From a virus: a stretch of DNA of 26,487 bases. Every line of letters starts with the position of its first letter. Position 1 is the first letter of the stretch. Shown here piece by piece: positions 2 through 20,952 of the stretch. Location of the stretch: IMG/VR virus record IMGVR_UViG_3300017788_000145, positions 1-26,487 of that record; one strand, written 5' to 3'. Below the pieces are notes generated by a model. It did no database searches, was not told where the DNA came from, and saw only the letters and a list, made by a program, of their open reading frames with translations. The translations under genes and the position numbers were made by a program.

Positions 2-376
2 CCACGCATCTCAAAGAAAGAACGCAATCTGATCAAAGGGGCCATCCGTAGGGTGTTCAGCAGATCAGAATTAAGGAGGGCAGTAATCGACGCAAGTAAA
101 ATGAAATATGAAGACCACACTAGACCACGGGTAAAGAATTGGTGCCTGTGTTGTGTGTGTGAAAAACCAACGCCGAAAAGCTACATGCAGGTTGACCATA
201 TCGACCCCATCGTTCCAACAGACTCTGCTCTTGAAGCAATGAGCTGGGACACGGTGATCGACCGCACTTGGTGCGAAGAGCACAACCTGCAAGCTATCTG
301 CACTGAATGCCATGAAGAAAAAACAAAACAAGAACGCAAACAGCGGGTACAAGCCCGAAAGGAGAAAAAGCAATGA
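2..376 (+). CDS. HNH endonuclease (5' end outside window)
   Basis: Probable HNH-family nuclease that cuts DNA using a metal ion held in a beta-beta-alpha fold. The frame is open from base 2 with no stop, and the residues before the first in-frame GTG (base 53) read as continuous basic protein (ISKKERNLIKGAIRRVF), so the true start probably lies upstream; the GTG at 53 is a less likely start. Visible motifs are a CxxC pair, the core VDHIDPI, then HNLQAIC and a following TECH, giving four cysteines for a structural zinc around the His-Asn-His site. The C-terminus is very basic. The stop overlaps the next start by four bases (ATGA), so the two genes are translationally coupled. It is not beside the terminase, so a packaging role is not implied; recombination, homing or host DNA breakdown are possible. 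Confidence 0.85.
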   Translation, partial: PRISKKERNLIKGAIRRVFSRSELRRAVIDASKMKYEDHTRPRVKNWCLCCVCEKPTPKSYMQVDHIDPIVPTDSALEAMSWDTVIDRTWCEEHNLQAICTECHEEKTKQERKQRVQARKEKKQ

Positions 377-681
377 ACGGGTCAGCAGTAAAAGATGTGA
401 GAAAGCAAATCAGAAATGTGATCAAGGAACAGCTTCCAGAGCTGATGCGGACAGAGATGATGAAAGGAATTGTGGAAGAATTACGGCAGGATATGGCGAC
501 AAGGTTGACGATGATCGAGACCATGGTGAAGACGAGCCTTGAAAAAATGGATTCAAAATCTGCACAGGTGCAAACCTACCTCATCAACCAGATCCACGAT
601 GTCCTCTACAAAAACGCCCCTAGCATCGACATCCCGGAAGCCAAAAAAGAAGAGACCAACCAACTAGACCTGCCGTTGTAA
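373..681 (+). CDS. Small coiled-coil protein with C-terminal clamp-binding-like motif
   Basis: No family is recognised for this 102-residue protein. Residues about 3-65 are rich in charged and hydrophobic residues with heptad-like spacing, suggesting one or two long helices. The last six residues are QLDLPL. Bacterial beta sliding-clamp ligands use QL(S/D)LF or the hexapeptide QLxLxL; E. coli Hda has QLSLPL near its N-terminus, so the match is close, and a free terminus is a common site for such motifs. The preceding residues (about 83-96) are polar and likely flexible. It sits between two nuclease genes and starts within the HNH stop codon. Inference: an adaptor tethering phage enzymes to the host beta clamp, or a clamp inhibitor. 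The motif is seen; the function is not proven. Confidence 0.75.
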   Translation: MNGSAVKDVRKQIRNVIKEQLPELMRTEMMKGIVEELRQDMATRLTMIETMVKTSLEKMDSKSAQVQTYLINQIHDVLYKNAPSIDIPEAKKEETNQLDLPL

Positions 682-698
682 CGGCTGGAGGAGAGACC

Positions 699-1481
699 AT
701 GAAAGAGCCAAAAGTGTTGTTGTTTGACATCGAGACCGCCCCCATGCTTGCCCATGTTTGGGGCATCTGGGATCAAAATGTAGCCTTGAACCAAATTCAC
801 ACTGACTGGCACTTGCTGTCATGGTCTGCAAAGTGGCTCGGTGACCCAGCATCCAAGATCATGTACATGGATCAGCGGTCGGCAAAGAACATCGAGGACG
901 ATTCCAAGATTCTGAAAGGGATTTGGGATCTCCTCGATGAAGCCGATATTCTCATTACGCAAAACGGGAAAAAGTTCGATCAAAAGAAGCTGAATGCCCG
1001 GTTCATTCTAACAGGCATGAAGCCTCCATCGCCGTCAAAACACATCGACACTTTTCAAATTGCAAAAAAGCATTTTGCATTCACTTCTAACAAGCTCGAG
1101 TACCTCAGCGAACATCTTTGCGATAAGTACAAGAAAATCACGCACCAACGCAAGTTCGGAGGCTTCCAGCTTTGGAAAGAGTGCATCGCGGGTAACATCG
1201 AAGCTTGGAACGAAATGGAAAAGTACAACAAGTATGATGTTTTGTCGCTCGAGGAACTGTATACAAAACTTCAGCCATGGGATAACTCGGTGAGCTTTGA
1301 CCTTTACCGCGACAGTACGATCCCGACCTGTAATTGCGGTAGCAAAAGGCTCCAACGCCGAGGGTACAATTTTTCGACCAAAGGCAAATATCAGCGGTGG
1401 CAATGTCGCGACTGCGGAAAGTGGATGTCCTCTGGACGCAACCTTATTTCCAAAGACCGCAAAGACTCTTTGTTAAAATAA
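699..1481 (+). CDS. DnaQ-fold 3'-5' exonuclease with C-terminal zinc ribbon
   Basis: Predicted RNase H-fold (DEDD) exonuclease removing nucleotides from 3' ends. Exo I is FDIET (D10, E12), Exo II is TQNGKKFD (N89, D94), and Exo III is YNKYD (Y176, D180), giving a DEDDy-type site; the sequence resembles the YprB/predicted 3'-5' exonuclease group more than polymerase proofreading subunits. Residues about 207-245 form a separate zinc ribbon with C211, C213, C236 and C239, resembling ribbons at the ends of IS1-type transposases, which would bind nucleic acid. A strong ribosome binding site (GGAGGAGA) precedes the ATG. The DNA polymerase in this window has its own exonuclease domain, so this enzyme more likely acts in repair, recombination or host DNA turnover. 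Confidence 0.85.
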   Translation: MKEPKVLLFDIETAPMLAHVWGIWDQNVALNQIHTDWHLLSWSAKWLGDPASKIMYMDQRSAKNIEDDSKILKGIWDLLDEADILITQNGKKFDQKKLNARFILTGMKPPSPSKHIDTFQIAKKHFAFTSNKLEYLSEHLCDKYKKITHQRKFGGFQLWKECIAGNIEAWNEMEKYNKYDVLSLEELYTKLQPWDNSVSFDLYRDSTIPTCNCGSKRLQRRGYNFSTKGKYQRWQCRDCGKWMSSGRNLISKDRKDSLLK

Positions 1482-2563: not shown

Positions 2564-4378
2564 ATGATTTATCGTTGCATTGCCCCTAACTGGGCAAACT
2601 TAACACCAAAAGTAATCGAAGGAGAATTCACCAATGAACAGATCGAAACTCACAACACAAACGGCTATAACATTTATTATCTTCCTAATTTTCCTGCTAA
2701 TTATGACATCTCCCGCCCTGTAGACGGTACGGACATCGACACATTCGAGTGGGTTTTCGTAGACTTCGACCTCAAGTCGAAAACTTATGCAAGCAAGGAA
2801 GACTTCGTCACAACCGTAAAGTGCTATCCGTTACTCCCCACAAAAATTATCGACTCTGGTAACGGTATTCATGTGTACTGGCGCGTAACAGACCTCGATG
2901 TAATGTCGTACCTGAAGCTTCAGCGTAGACTTATGCGCCTCTTCAATACTGACGAAGCTGTCACCAAGATCTTTCAACTCATGCGTCTCCCCGGGACGGT
3001 GAACACAAAGGATCCTGATGACCTGAAGCTTTGCACACTGATTGAAGAGAACAGCCATCAGTATACGAGTGAAGAGCTAGACCAATGCCTGCCGATCCTT
3101 TCTCCAGAAGATGAACGCTTCTGCGTGGAGCACTACAACCGCACTTACAACATCGCACAAACAGCGTTGAAAGTAGACGACAAGCTTCCAGTAAAGTTTG
3201 GAAAACTTTTGACTACGAGCAGGGAAGCAAAAGAAATTTGGTCTGGTAACACCGATGATCGAAGCAAGTCTGACTATCGCCTCGGCCACCTCATGTGGGG
3301 GCACAGCTTCACCAAGGAGGAGGCCATGTCAGTGTTAGTGAACAGCTCGAAAGCGATCTCCCGGGCACCTCACCACCGGTATGCCTACGCAGCCAATATC
3401 GTGGACAAAATCTGGACCTACGAGCTGACCGAGGACAAAGACACTTTGAACCTGTCCATCACGGTGAAAAGCATTCTGTCCAAAGGCGAATCTACCGTAA
3501 AAGGCGAACGCTTTCCATGTTACCGTTGGCTCGACGACACCGCCCACGGCTTTCGTCTGGGTCAGATTATCGGCCTCGTGGCAGGCTCTGGCGTAGGCAA
3601 GACAGCTATCGGCCTGAACATGTTCCTTGGGTTTGTCGAGAACAATCCTGACTGCCACCATTTTGTTGTACCGCTCGAGCAACCCGGAAACGAAATCGCA
3701 GACCGCTGGAGAACCATGTGCGGTGACCGTGTACACCTACACGACAAGGTCCACATTCTCAGCAACTATGACGATGATGGCAACTTCAGGCACCTGTCCC
3801 TTGACGAGATTAAGGAGTACATCCTCAAGTTTCAACAGGTCACAGGCTACAAGGTCGGGTGCATCATGATCGACCACATCGGTGCCTTGAAGAAGAAGGG
3901 TGCAGATGGAGAGAACCAAGGGCTTCTGGACATCTGTCACTCGATGAAAGCCTTCGCGGTACAGACCAACTCCCTTCTGGTGATGCAGTCTCAGTCTTCC
4001 CGCGAGAAGGCAGGGATCGGCGACCTCGAGCTGAACAAAGATGCAGCTTACGGCACCATGTACTTTGAAGCTTATTGCGATTATCTCATTACCCTCTGGC
4101 AACCGCTCAAGCGATGCTACAAGAACGAAAAGTGCCCAACCGTGACGGCTTTCAAATTTTGTAAGATTCGTCACAAAAAGAAAGGCGCAGACAGGATTCA
4201 GGAAGATGTCCCGTATGTACTTTACTTTGACCCCGAAACCCAGCACCTGCGCCCGATGACGCAAGACGAAGAGAAGTCTTTTGACTTCTTTAATCGTCAA
4301 GCTACTCAGCTTCGTGGAGCAGACCGCAAAACTGACCTCGTAACCTACACAACAATCAAAACAAAGGAGACCGCATGA
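2564..4378 (+). CDS. Primase-helicase: archaeo-eukaryotic-type primase fused to RecA/DnaB-type helicase
   Basis: Predicted replicative helicase with a fused primase. N-terminal part (about residues 1-200): VDFD (D67, D69), SGNGIHVYW (S98 to H103) and LMRLPGTVN (R141 to N147) match in order the three motifs of the archaeo-eukaryotic primase/PrimPol superfamily: the metal-binding DxD, the sxH motif, and a third motif, which in the family is an hD/E motif and is only loosely matched here. C-terminal part (about 320-560): Walker A GSGVGKT (341-347), Walker B ending IMIDH with D437, and a later MQSQSS segment typical of SF4 ring helicases. No TOPRIM domain or CHC2 zinc finger is visible, unlike T7 gp4. 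An AAGGAGG site precedes the ATG; the stop overlaps the reductase start (ATGA). Helicase call firm, primase call good. Confidence 0.88.
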   Translation: MIYRCIAPNWANLTPKVIEGEFTNEQIETHNTNGYNIYYLPNFPANYDISRPVDGTDIDTFEWVFVDFDLKSKTYASKEDFVTTVKCYPLLPTKIIDSGNGIHVYWRVTDLDVMSYLKLQRRLMRLFNTDEAVTKIFQLMRLPGTVNTKDPDDLKLCTLIEENSHQYTSEELDQCLPILSPEDERFCVEHYNRTYNIAQTALKVDDKLPVKFGKLLTTSREAKEIWSGNTDDRSKSDYRLGHLMWGHSFTKEEAMSVLVNSSKAISRAPHHRYAYAANIVDKIWTYELTEDKDTLNLSITVKSILSKGESTVKGERFPCYRWLDDTAHGFRLGQIIGLVAGSGVGKTAIGLNMFLGFVENNPDCHHFVVPLEQPGNEIADRWRTMCGDRVHLHDKVHILSNYDDDGNFRHLSLDEIKEYILKFQQVTGYKVGCIMIDHIGALKKKGADGENQGLLDICHSMKAFAVQTNSLLVMQSQSSREKAGIGDLELNKDAAYGTMYFEAYCDYLITLWQPLKRCYKNEKCPTVTAFKFCKIRHKKKGADRIQEDVPYVLYFDPETQHLRPMTQDEEKSFDFFNRQATQLRGADRKTDLVTYTTIKTKETA

Positions 4379-6228
4379 ATAACTCAAATAAACTACTATC
4401 AGACATCGTAGCTTTCCGCACTTACGCGAAGCACCTGCCCCATTTTGAACGCAGGGAAACCCTCGAAGAAACCATCAACCGAAACATGCACATGCACTTG
4501 CAGAAGTTTCCAAAGCTCTCCCGCGACATCATCAAAGCCTTCCAGCTGATCCACGAGTACAAGGTGATGCCTTCCATGAGGGCAATGCAGTTTGGTGGAG
4601 AAGCTATCCTGAAGAACAACATCCGGTCCTACAACTGTTCGTTCACGCATGTTGATGATGTCCGCATCTTTGGAGAGATCCTGTTCCTTCTGTTGTCAGG
4701 CACTGGTGTAGGATTCTCTTGTCAAAAACGCCACACCAACAAACTCCCATCAGTACAGATGCCACGCGAAGAAGGAACTTTTGTGGTGCATGATTCTATC
4801 ACTGGATGGGCACAGGCTTTGGACGCCCTGATGGATGCGTACTTCTATGCTCGGATGCGCCCAGTGTTCGACCTCTCTAACATTCGTCCAAAAGGCTCAT
4901 ACCTCGTTACGACCGGAGCAAAAGCCCCCGGCCCTGCACCCCTCAAGGTAATGCTCGAAGCAGTGGACGGAAAGATGAAAGCAGCTGTAGGTCGCAGGCT
5001 CAAGCCTATCGAAGTGCATGATCTGATTTGCATCATCGCAGATTGTGTCCTTGCAGGCGGGATCCGCAGAGCGGCTCTGATCTCCCTCTTTGACCGTACA
5101 GATGAAGAGATGCTGAAAGCCAAGCACGGTGCATGGTGGGAGAAACATCCTTACCGTGCTCGGGCCAACAACTCAGCAGTCCTGCCTCGAGGAGCTGTAA
5201 AAGAAGAGCAATTCAGGTACATCTTCGACATGTGCGTGAACTCCAATGCAGGAGAGCCGGGATTCTACTGGACCAACGATGAGAACCTCGGTGCCAACCC
5301 ATGCGTCGAGATCGCCCTAAACTCGAACCAATTCTGCAACCTCACCACGATCAACCAGACAGGCATTGAAGACAAGAAAGACTGGCTGAACCGCGTCTAC
5401 GCAGCTACCCTGCTCGGAACGCTTCAGGCAGCTTACACTGACTTCCCATACCTCCGTCCGATCTGGAAGCAGACAACAGAGTCAGAAGCCCTCCTCGGTG
5501 TGTCCTGCACCGGCATCGCGGACGCTCACGGGAAGGTGACCGCAGACTGGCTAAAAGTTGGTGCAGACTTTGCGAAAGAGACCAACGCGAAGTATGCAGA
5601 GAAGCTGGGGATCAACCCTGCGGCCCGTATCACCGCCATCAAGCCTGAAGGCACAGCGTCTTGCATTTTGGGGTCATCGTCTGGGATTCATGCACGACAC
5701 GACAACCATTACCTCCGTCGTGTTCGCATGAATAAAGACGACGCTCTTGCACTGTACCTGAAAGCTACCATCCCAGAGCTGGTCGAAGATGACCTGTTTT
5801 CGGCTTCTGGTGTTGTGGTGACCATTCCACAAGAGTCACCAGAAGGAGCCATCGTTCGGAGCGCAGAGACGGCCAAAAGTCTTTTCGACCGCACGGTGTT
5901 CTACCATGACAACTGGATCAAGCCGGGGCACATCTCGGGCAAGAACACCCACAATGTCAGTGTGACGATCTCATACCGTCAGGAAGAAATCGAAGAGCTA
6001 TACGGCCTGCTCTGGAACTACCGCGACAACTACACTGGGATCTCCCTGCTCCCTTACGACAACGGGTCTTACAAGCAAGCACCGTTCGAGTCGTGCGACA
6101 AGGAGACCTTCGAGAAGTACAACGCGATGGTGAAGTCTATTGACCTTACCCAAGTGTTTGAAGAGTACGATGGCACCAACAGAAGCCAACTAATTGCCTG
6201 CGCTGGCGGTGCTTGTGAGATCACTTGA
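4375..6228 (+). CDS. nrdJ: Class II (adenosylcobalamin-dependent) ribonucleotide reductase
   Basis: Reduces ribonucleotides to deoxyribonucleotides for phage DNA synthesis. Active-site residues are visible: RSYNCSF (C88), NPCVEI (radical cysteine C310 and E312), and NQFCNL (C321). C88 and C321 would form the redox pair, and the 11-residue spacing of C310-C321 equals that of the Lactobacillus monomeric enzyme (C408/C419). The C-terminus, CAGGACEIT, has C609 and C614, the swinging pair that re-reduces the active site. Length (617) is somewhat shorter than the roughly 740-residue Lactobacillus enzyme. No small subunit gene or glycyl-radical motif is present, so class II is preferred over I or III; it would need vitamin B12 from the host or environment. 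Translationally coupled to the primase-helicase. Confidence 0.92.
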   Translation: MNNSNKLLSDIVAFRTYAKHLPHFERRETLEETINRNMHMHLQKFPKLSRDIIKAFQLIHEYKVMPSMRAMQFGGEAILKNNIRSYNCSFTHVDDVRIFGEILFLLLSGTGVGFSCQKRHTNKLPSVQMPREEGTFVVHDSITGWAQALDALMDAYFYARMRPVFDLSNIRPKGSYLVTTGAKAPGPAPLKVMLEAVDGKMKAAVGRRLKPIEVHDLICIIADCVLAGGIRRAALISLFDRTDEEMLKAKHGAWWEKHPYRARANNSAVLPRGAVKEEQFRYIFDMCVNSNAGEPGFYWTNDENLGANPCVEIALNSNQFCNLTTINQTGIEDKKDWLNRVYAATLLGTLQAAYTDFPYLRPIWKQTTESEALLGVSCTGIADAHGKVTADWLKVGADFAKETNAKYAEKLGINPAARITAIKPEGTASCILGSSSGIHARHDNHYLRRVRMNKDDALALYLKATIPELVEDDLFSASGVVVTIPQESPEGAIVRSAETAKSLFDRTVFYHDNWIKPGHISGKNTHNVSVTISYRQEEIEELYGLLWNYRDNYTGISLLPYDNGSYKQAPFESCDKETFEKYNAMVKSIDLTQVFEEYDGTNRSQLIACAGGACEIT

Positions 6229-19129: not shown

Positions 19130-19753
19130 ATGAATTTTATTGTAAAAAAAGTAACCAACAAAGATATAAAAGATCTTGTCTTAAATTACCATTACGCAAA
19201 AAGATTCCCTTCTGTGTCTTATGCGTACGGTCTATTTAATGAGGCAGAAGAATTGATCGGATGTGTTACTTACGGAATGCCAGCAAGCCCGCGAGTATCT
19301 GACGGTATTTGTGGAAAAGAATACTCAAAAGATGTTTTAGAATTAAACAGATTGGTATTAAAATATAATAGAAAAAATGAAGCATCTTATTTAATTGCTA
19401 AAAGTTTAAAGCTACTTCCTAGAAATAAGATAATTATTAGCTATGCTGACTCTTCTCAAAATCATGTGGGATTCGTATATCAAGCGACAAATTTTATCTA
19501 CCTTGGGCTAAGCGCAATAAGAACAGATAGAATTTTTATTGATGGGTCGAAACAAAAACATGGAAGGCATGTTATTTCAAGTGAAATAAATAATATTAAA
19601 GAAAGAACCAAATTAGTACCGAGGCCAAGAAAACATCGGTATCTTGCGATTTTGGGAGATAATAAATACAAAAGTAAAATCTTACAGGCTTTAAAATACA
19701 AAATTGAAAAATACCCTAAAAAAAGTGTTGACCATGCTAGGGGACCTGTGTAG
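19130..19753 (+). CDS. Mom-like DNA adenine modification protein
   Basis: Resembles phage Mu Mom, which converts adenine to N6-carbamoylmethyl-adenine and protects phage DNA from restriction; Mom is a GNAT-fold enzyme. Matching segments in order are CVTYGMPASP (45-54), ELNRLVL (71-77), ISYADSSQNHVG (103-114), VYQATNF (116-122) and PRPRKHRYL (164-172). Length 207 is a little under Mu Mom. The coding sequence is visibly more AT-rich than its neighbours (many AAT, AAA, ATT, TTA codons), suggesting recent transfer. No Com-like translational activator is adjacent. It has its own promoter, and its last codons overlap the next promoter. Family call strong from memory of motifs; the chemistry here is inferred. 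Confidence 0.88.
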   Translation: MNFIVKKVTNKDIKDLVLNYHYAKRFPSVSYAYGLFNEAEELIGCVTYGMPASPRVSDGICGKEYSKDVLELNRLVLKYNRKNEASYLIAKSLKLLPRNKIIISYADSSQNHVGFVYQATNFIYLGLSAIRTDRIFIDGSKQKHGRHVISSEINNIKERTKLVPRPRKHRYLAILGDNKYKSKILQALKYKIEKYPKKSVDHARGPV

Positions 19754-19756
19754 AAC
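19728..19756 (+). promoter_or_regulatory. Promoter of the zinc/OB-like gene, inside the end of the Mom-like gene
   Basis: TTGACC at 19728-19733, a 17-base spacer, TAGAAC at 19751-19756; the -10 begins with the TAG stop of the Mom-like gene. An A-rich tract precedes it, and AAGGAGAACGACC follows before the next ATG. Confidence 0.6.
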
Positions 19757-19776
19757 AAAAGGCAAGGAGAACGACC

Positions 19777-20952
19777 ATGAACTTTCAAATTCCTGCCCGC
19801 AACCTCGAGACCCTGAATACCAAGATCGAAAAGCTGGGTCGCAAGACCCACAAGCTGAACCTTGCGAACGCACCCTTCGCCAGCGTGGATGGCGTAGTGA
19901 TCTACCCCGCGCACTGGGTCGGCGCGACTTTTGTCCCCACCAAAAAACTCTACTCCGTGAACCTCCACGGCGTATCCCCAAGGCTCCCGAACGGGTGGTC
20001 TTTCGTAGCCACCCTCGAGCACACCCCTGCTGGTAACCTGATCAAGTCTACCCCTGAAGCGGGCGACCTCCCCGAGTCCTACCGCACCGCGAAGGCTTAC
20101 TGCCACCATTGCAATACCACCCGCTCCCGCAAAGACACCTATGTCCTCCGCAACGATGCAGGTGAGCTGAAGCAAGTCGGTCGCACCTGCGTCAAGGATT
20201 TCCTCGGCCACGCAACGCTTGAGCAGATCGGCAACTACGAGGCTTTCGCCGAACTGCTCCGCGACAGCGAAGATGAAGACCGCCTCTCCTTCGGTGGCGA
20301 TGACTGGGGGTGCTCTCCCGATTACATGGTCGCTATGTCGGTTGAAGTGATCAAGCACGAGGGCTTCTTCAGCAAGAAGACTGCTGAGATGAACGACCGC
20401 CCTGCTACCTCCTCTATCGTCCGCAAGAACCTCCGCCCAACCCCTAGCGCGTTGGCTAACGGCTTCAAGCCCTACGACATCTCTGAAGCCTCTGTTGAAA
20501 AGGCTCAGAAAGTGATCGCTTGGCTCAAGACTCTCTCCCCCAAGTCTGACTACGAGTGGAACCTGAAAGCTCTCGCAAGCCTCGAGTTCGTGACTATGGA
20601 TCGCGTGGGCTTCCTCGCTTCCGCTGTGGTGGCTTACGACAAAGCTGTGGGCGCAGAGCTTGCCCGTAACGCTGAAAAGGCCGAGAGCAATCACTTCGGT
20701 ACCGTCGGCGAGCGAGCCGTGTTCACCCTGACCTTCTTCAAAGAGTCCAGCTTCGACACTATGTACGGAGTCCAGACTATCCACCTCTTCAAGGACGCAT
20801 CTGGCAACATCGCTAAGTGGGTCACCGGAACCCACACTGGTCTCGAAATCGGCAACACCTATACTCTGAAAGCGACCGTGAAAAAGCACGACGATTACAA
20901 GGGGGTAAAACAAACTGTCCTCACCCGTTGCTCGGTCGAGGGTATGAAATGA
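19777..20952 (+). CDS. Zinc-finger and OB-fold-like protein, likely nucleic-acid binding
   Basis: 391 residues. A cysteine cluster at 108-144 (CHHC, C109/C112, then RSRKDTYVL and VGRTCVKDFLG with C138) resembles a zinc-binding module found in a widespread family of uncharacterised phage and plasmid proteins. Residues about 310-388 (ERAVFTLTFFKE, IHLFKDASGNIAKW, NTYTLKATVKKHDDYKG) look like an OB-fold strand pattern, typical of ssDNA or RNA binding. An acidic stretch (RDSEDEDRLSFGGDD) lies between. The gene is GC-rich with C-ending codons, contrasting sharply with the preceding AT-rich gene. Own promoter and leader. A long antisense frame here is a shadow. Confidence 0.75.
   Translation: MNFQIPARNLETLNTKIEKLGRKTHKLNLANAPFASVDGVVIYPAHWVGATFVPTKKLYSVNLHGVSPRLPNGWSFVATLEHTPAGNLIKSTPEAGDLPESYRTAKAYCHHCNTTRSRKDTYVLRNDAGELKQVGRTCVKDFLGHATLEQIGNYEAFAELLRDSEDEDRLSFGGDDWGCSPDYMVAMSVEVIKHEGFFSKKTAEMNDRPATSSIVRKNLRPTPSALANGFKPYDISEASVEKAQKVIAWLKTLSPKSDYEWNLKALASLEFVTMDRVGFLASAVVAYDKAVGAELARNAEKAESNHFGTVGERAVFTLTFFKESSFDTMYGVQTIHLFKDASGNIAKWVTGTHTGLEIGNTYTLKATVKKHDDYKGVKQTVLTRCSVEGMK

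Follow-up and report, generated by a model that had tools for sequence, protein, structure and literature searches.

The bacterial clamp-binding consensus is QL[S/D]LF, and the Hda peptide QLSLPL is a tight binder of the clamp (PMC12309361), with a KD of 0.38 uM for the clamp of Escherichia coli (PMC11139829). T4 gp33 is a small phage protein whose C-terminal epitope binds the phage clamp (PMC2988020), and Gp168 of phage Twort sits in the DNA channel of the clamp rather than in its peptide pocket (PMC11139829). The window analysed here, a stretch of viral DNA of 26,487 nucleotides, encodes near its start a small protein that ends in QLDLPL. Translation of the ORF gave a product of 102 aa (MNGSAVKD...EETNQLDLPL) in which the stop codon TAA follows the last motif codon immediately (Table 1). 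The result confirmed the claim of an earlier note on this DNA that the C-terminal six residues match the clamp hexapeptide QLxLxL at a free end; QLDLPL meets the bacterial clamp-binding consensus (QL[S/D]LF or QLxLxL class) and, as the same note had pointed out, is one residue away from the QLSLPL of Hda, with D for S, both of which fall within the consensus.

Table 1. Position and basis of the features described at the start of the window.
Feature	Position	Strand	Basis
HNH nuclease gene, 5' end cut by window start (about two codons)	2..376	+	phrog_1985, E = 1e-12
Small helical protein, 102 aa	373..681	+	HMM family in related phages; ATG overlaps HNH stop codon
Predicted continuous helix, residues 3-80, with family core K7, R10, Q12, R14	379..612	+	Alignment, AlphaFold2
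Tail, residues 81-102, of low confidence and probably disordered; differs between relatives or is missing	613..678	+	pLDDT, alignment
QLDLPL, residues 97-102, match to bacterial clamp-binding motif; this member only	661..678	+	Translation; absent in other 23 members
DnaQ/RNase H-fold exonuclease	699..1481	+	phrog_403, E = 8e-95; PF13482 RNase_H_2

The start codon of the small-protein gene (ATG, 373-375) overlaps the stop codon of the upstream HNH ORF (TGA, 374-376) in an ATGA junction, and GGAG lies upstream of the ATG. This overlap and the phrog_1985 match of the upstream ORF bear out the coupling to an HNH nuclease that had been proposed; the two proteins are co-produced by translational coupling. 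The PF01844 match of the HNH ORF was just under its cut-off, and its product is 58-59% identical to the HNH proteins of loci L083 and L082, whose start reads (M)NPRI....

An AlphaFold2 model of the small protein, with 22 homologs as input, showed a single helix over residues 3-80 with pLDDT mostly >90, followed from residue 81 by a tail with pLDDT of about 54-64; for the model overall, mean pLDDT was 85.9 and pTM 0.47. As a prediction, the flexible stretch and coiled coil that the earlier note had placed before the motif therefore hold, and the clamp-like motif, which sits in the low-confidence tail outside the helix, would be exposed according to the same AlphaFold2 prediction. A prediction of one helix says little about structure, and a lone helix of 78 residues usually points to self-association or to a partner.

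Single-sequence searches with the small protein found no relatives. Relatives were reached via the neighbouring genes in related IMG/VR phages and then by iterated HMM search. The neighbour-gene searches led to L082, L083 and L084 and then to 70 helicase loci and 19 HNH loci, and the ORF after the HNH gene in L082 and L083 aligned with the window protein at 26-30% identity in pairwise comparisons that do not depend on the HMM. The iterated HMM collected 33 ORFs, representing 22 distinct sequences (E < 1e-13), and the addition of L195 (E = 2e-6) and L208 gave a family of 24 distinct members including the window protein, which itself scored E = 2.7e-26 against the family HMM, its sequence being among those from which the model was built. 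A final scan of the collection, run with the family alignment, yielded 15 loci, almost all of which were already known. In the 22-member alignment, K7, R10 and R14 were the same in all sequences and Q12 in almost all; the conserved part is the N-terminal basic helix, which contains no clamp motif. Pfam and PHROGs gave no convincing family; the weak helix-type matches obtained there (E about 0.0006-0.1) were in no case shared by more than four of the 22 members. Matches in Pfam, PHROGs and the PDB were to low-complexity helix (apolipoprotein A-I, E about 1e-4; tape measure, 0.009) and were rejected.

The same HNH gene, of the phrog_1985 type, was present upstream in 22 of 22 aligned members, mostly overlapping or adjacent and sometimes with one gene between the two (L108, L110, L130, L133 and L148), and the remote member in L195 is likewise located downstream of an HNH gene. 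Among the 45 loci with enough upstream sequence, both genes were found in 22, the small protein without an HNH gene in none, an HNH gene without the small protein in nine, and neither in 14. Removal of two duplicate records changed these counts to 20, 0, 9 and 14 (Fisher p = 1.1e-5, with related phages treated as independent). The HNH and small-helix genes are a reproducible gene pair, with no described family in the libraries searched, and the HNH linkage together with the helix suggests that the small protein probably assists the HNH nuclease as a helical accessory. The invariant K7, R10 and R14, which lie near the N-terminus and in the helix, would also suit a protein that acts alone on DNA by means of its basic N-terminal helix and a nucleoid-like coiled coil and shares only a transcript with the HNH gene; however, not one of the 22 loci carries the small protein without the HNH gene, although its downstream neighbours vary freely, and we regard such independent action as improbable. 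The nine loci with HNH but without the small protein, on the other hand, count against the accessory reading. Where the HNH gene occurs without the small protein, its next neighbour is usually a phosphoesterase, and in L103 an exonuclease-like ORF, these functions being read from the sequence. In L134 (3548-4414) and L135 (3507-4373), the slot of the small protein or phosphoesterase after the HNH gene holds an ORF that reads as cytosine-methyltransferase-like.

A look-alike stretch, LI[KR]GxxR[RQ], is common to the N-termini of the HNH and small proteins. Homology of the two on the basis of this shared motif (LIKGAIRRV in HNH, window 29-60; LIRGQVRQI in the small protein) was unsupported by profile comparison (E = 0.06 over 10 columns, probability 0.9%).

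Downstream of the small protein, the DnaQ-fold exonuclease named in the earlier note is indeed the next gene in the window, but it does not stand as conserved context, since only about six relatives share the arrangement; in other relatives the small protein is followed by, for example, a calcineurin-like phosphoesterase. The exonuclease gene of the window is followed by SprT-like and SSB-like ORFs (names that come from our own reading of the sequence and not from a database), a DnaB-type helicase/primase, a class II ribonucleotide reductase and a family A polymerase. The reductase (window 4375-6228) thus lies between helicase and PolA; in most relatives PolA comes directly after the helicase, and in L085, L120 and L144 the reductase is located elsewhere. 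Further along the window, a 471-codon open frame (19498-20913, -) runs antisense to a 391-aa ORF (19777-20952) and to part of the ORF at 19130-19753, and is probably an effect of composition.

The tail of the small protein is the least conserved part of the family. Past about residue 80, length and sequence vary and the members cannot be aligned with one another, and a clamp motif in the tail was found in one of the 24 members, the window protein. The closest comparable tail, that of L083, reads NNLEAGV against TNQLDLPL in the window protein; the other loose clamp-motif matches in the family are all inside the helix, and no small-protein homolog with the motif was found among the exonuclease-anchored loci. 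The conservation of QLxLPL in homologs, which the earlier note had named as a check, was thus not observed, and its suggestion of an undescribed adaptor or clamp inhibitor found no support for the family, as 23 of 24 members are without a clamp motif in the tail. A role of the whole family as host-clamp adaptor or clamp inhibitor could draw on the motif in the window protein and on the absence of a phage clamp: as had been claimed for the window, no clamp (PF02768) was found in the window record, nor in 17 related phage records (49-59 kb), while control genomes matched, although the sequences of the window and of several relatives may be incomplete. However, such a role is contradicted by the homologs that lack the motif, the very finding that the earlier note had named as a refutation, and the known inhibitor Gp168 acts via the DNA channel and not the peptide pocket (PMC11139829); we consider it very improbable. 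No homolog backs a family-wide role, and the QLDLPL hook can be no more than a local addition, perhaps one that arose by chance.

The chance of such an ending was estimated from the residue frequencies at the C-termini of 2,506 distinct ORF calls, taken from the window and the fetched phage loci. The result showed that QLxLxL exactly at the C-terminus has a probability of 3.0e-5 per gene, corresponding to an expectation of 0.001 for the 33 genes of the window and 0.08 for all 2,506 ORFs. An exact-end QLxLxL was present in the window gene only, and the motif was found no more than five residues from the end in two others. An exact C-terminal QLxLxL is therefore unlikely for a single window, yet not surprising when many windows and motifs are scanned. 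Internal clamp-like motifs in the relatives numbered nine, compared with 4.35 in shuffles (range 2-8). Five of the nine were the PolA site QLGLEF and its variants near residue 290, which lies within the polymerase fold and was judged to be no clamp motif; the remainder were scattered.

It is possible that the tail motif is a coincidence, a variable disordered tail having drifted into QLDLPL while only the HNH-linked helical core matters and the clamp plays no part in what the protein does during infection. Occurrence in a single member with unalignable tails is consistent with such drift, and with 0.08 expected in 2,506 ORFs, thousands of scanned windows will yield such cases. However, the match covers the full consensus, sits at the free C-terminus of a tail predicted to be disordered and occurs in a replication/recombination gene cluster, and the stricter form QL[SD]LPL, which was defined post hoc, has a probability of 1.4e-7 per gene. 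Moreover, short motifs in viral tails commonly arise in single lineages, so that absence of the motif in relatives that are 21-33% identical to the window protein is only moderate evidence against its use. Taken together, we give coincidence slightly less than an even chance.

The explanation that we prefer, which as a whole we hold to be evenly balanced, is that the small protein is an HNH accessory with a tail possibly used as a clamp tether in this lineage. In these environmental phages of roughly 50-60 kb that encode PolA, the small helical protein, probably self-associating, would be an accessory of the HNH nuclease encoded directly upstream, with the basic helix at the N-terminus and the helix after it as its conserved working part; both the HNH partnership and the self-association are what we infer from the data above. 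The QLDLPL end of the disordered tail, in this phage alone, should fit the peptide pocket of the host DnaN, and the tail is likely to bind the clamp in vitro. For use of this binding during infection, the balance tips slightly towards the negative. If used, QLDLPL would be an addition acquired in this lineage that tethers the accessory, and whatever is bound to it, to clamps on DNA that is being replicated. The lineage-specific tether is placed near the midpoint because the full consensus match lies at a free disordered end. In a fuller scenario, the HNH accessory of this phage lineage would have acquired a clamp hook at its C-terminus that ties a nuclease complex of the phage to the sliding clamp of the host, and a PolA phage that lacks a clamp of its own could in this way direct a nuclease to replication forks; as a whole, this scenario is unlikely. 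The argument for use of the motif is one from sequence, and as the motif is present in one sequence only, selection on QLDLPL cannot be gauged.

The partner clamp is assumed in this explanation, the host being uncertain. The best matches of the helicase in the cellular collection were three Omnitrophota MAGs (L174, 32%; L175, 63%; L176, 34% identity), which suggests Omnitrophota as the host phylum, with misbinning possible. The DnaN of the L175 MAG, which has a related phage contig, aligned over its whole length with beta clamps of known structure and has retained ATDG-RLAL as well as the C-terminal VVLPM. The small-protein profile found nothing in 285 genomes from the phylum of this MAG.

Should the tail be in use, one lineage would have acquired, through a few residues, a tether between a phage nuclease module and the host clamp. 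If the tail is unused, it is a warning that a perfect short motif in a single sequence is no evidence of function. The pair of HNH and small-helix genes, which had no match in the family libraries searched, is a more reproducible result than the tail motif.

Among known systems, E. coli Hda resembles the window protein in that its clamp motif also has six residues, one of them different, and lies in a disordered stretch at a terminus, but Hda regulates DnaA, carries the motif at its N-terminus and has no homology to the window protein. T4 gp33, a late-transcription co-activator of 112 aa that was compared by description, is likewise a small phage protein, in which a binding body is joined to a clamp-binding tail at the C-terminus; it differs in that it binds RNA polymerase and the phage's own clamp gp45, whereas no phage clamp was found here. 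Twort Gp168, a clamp inhibitor that was compared by its description in the literature, is a small phage protein acting on the host DnaN; it does so at the DNA channel, whereas QLDLPL should fit the peptide pocket.
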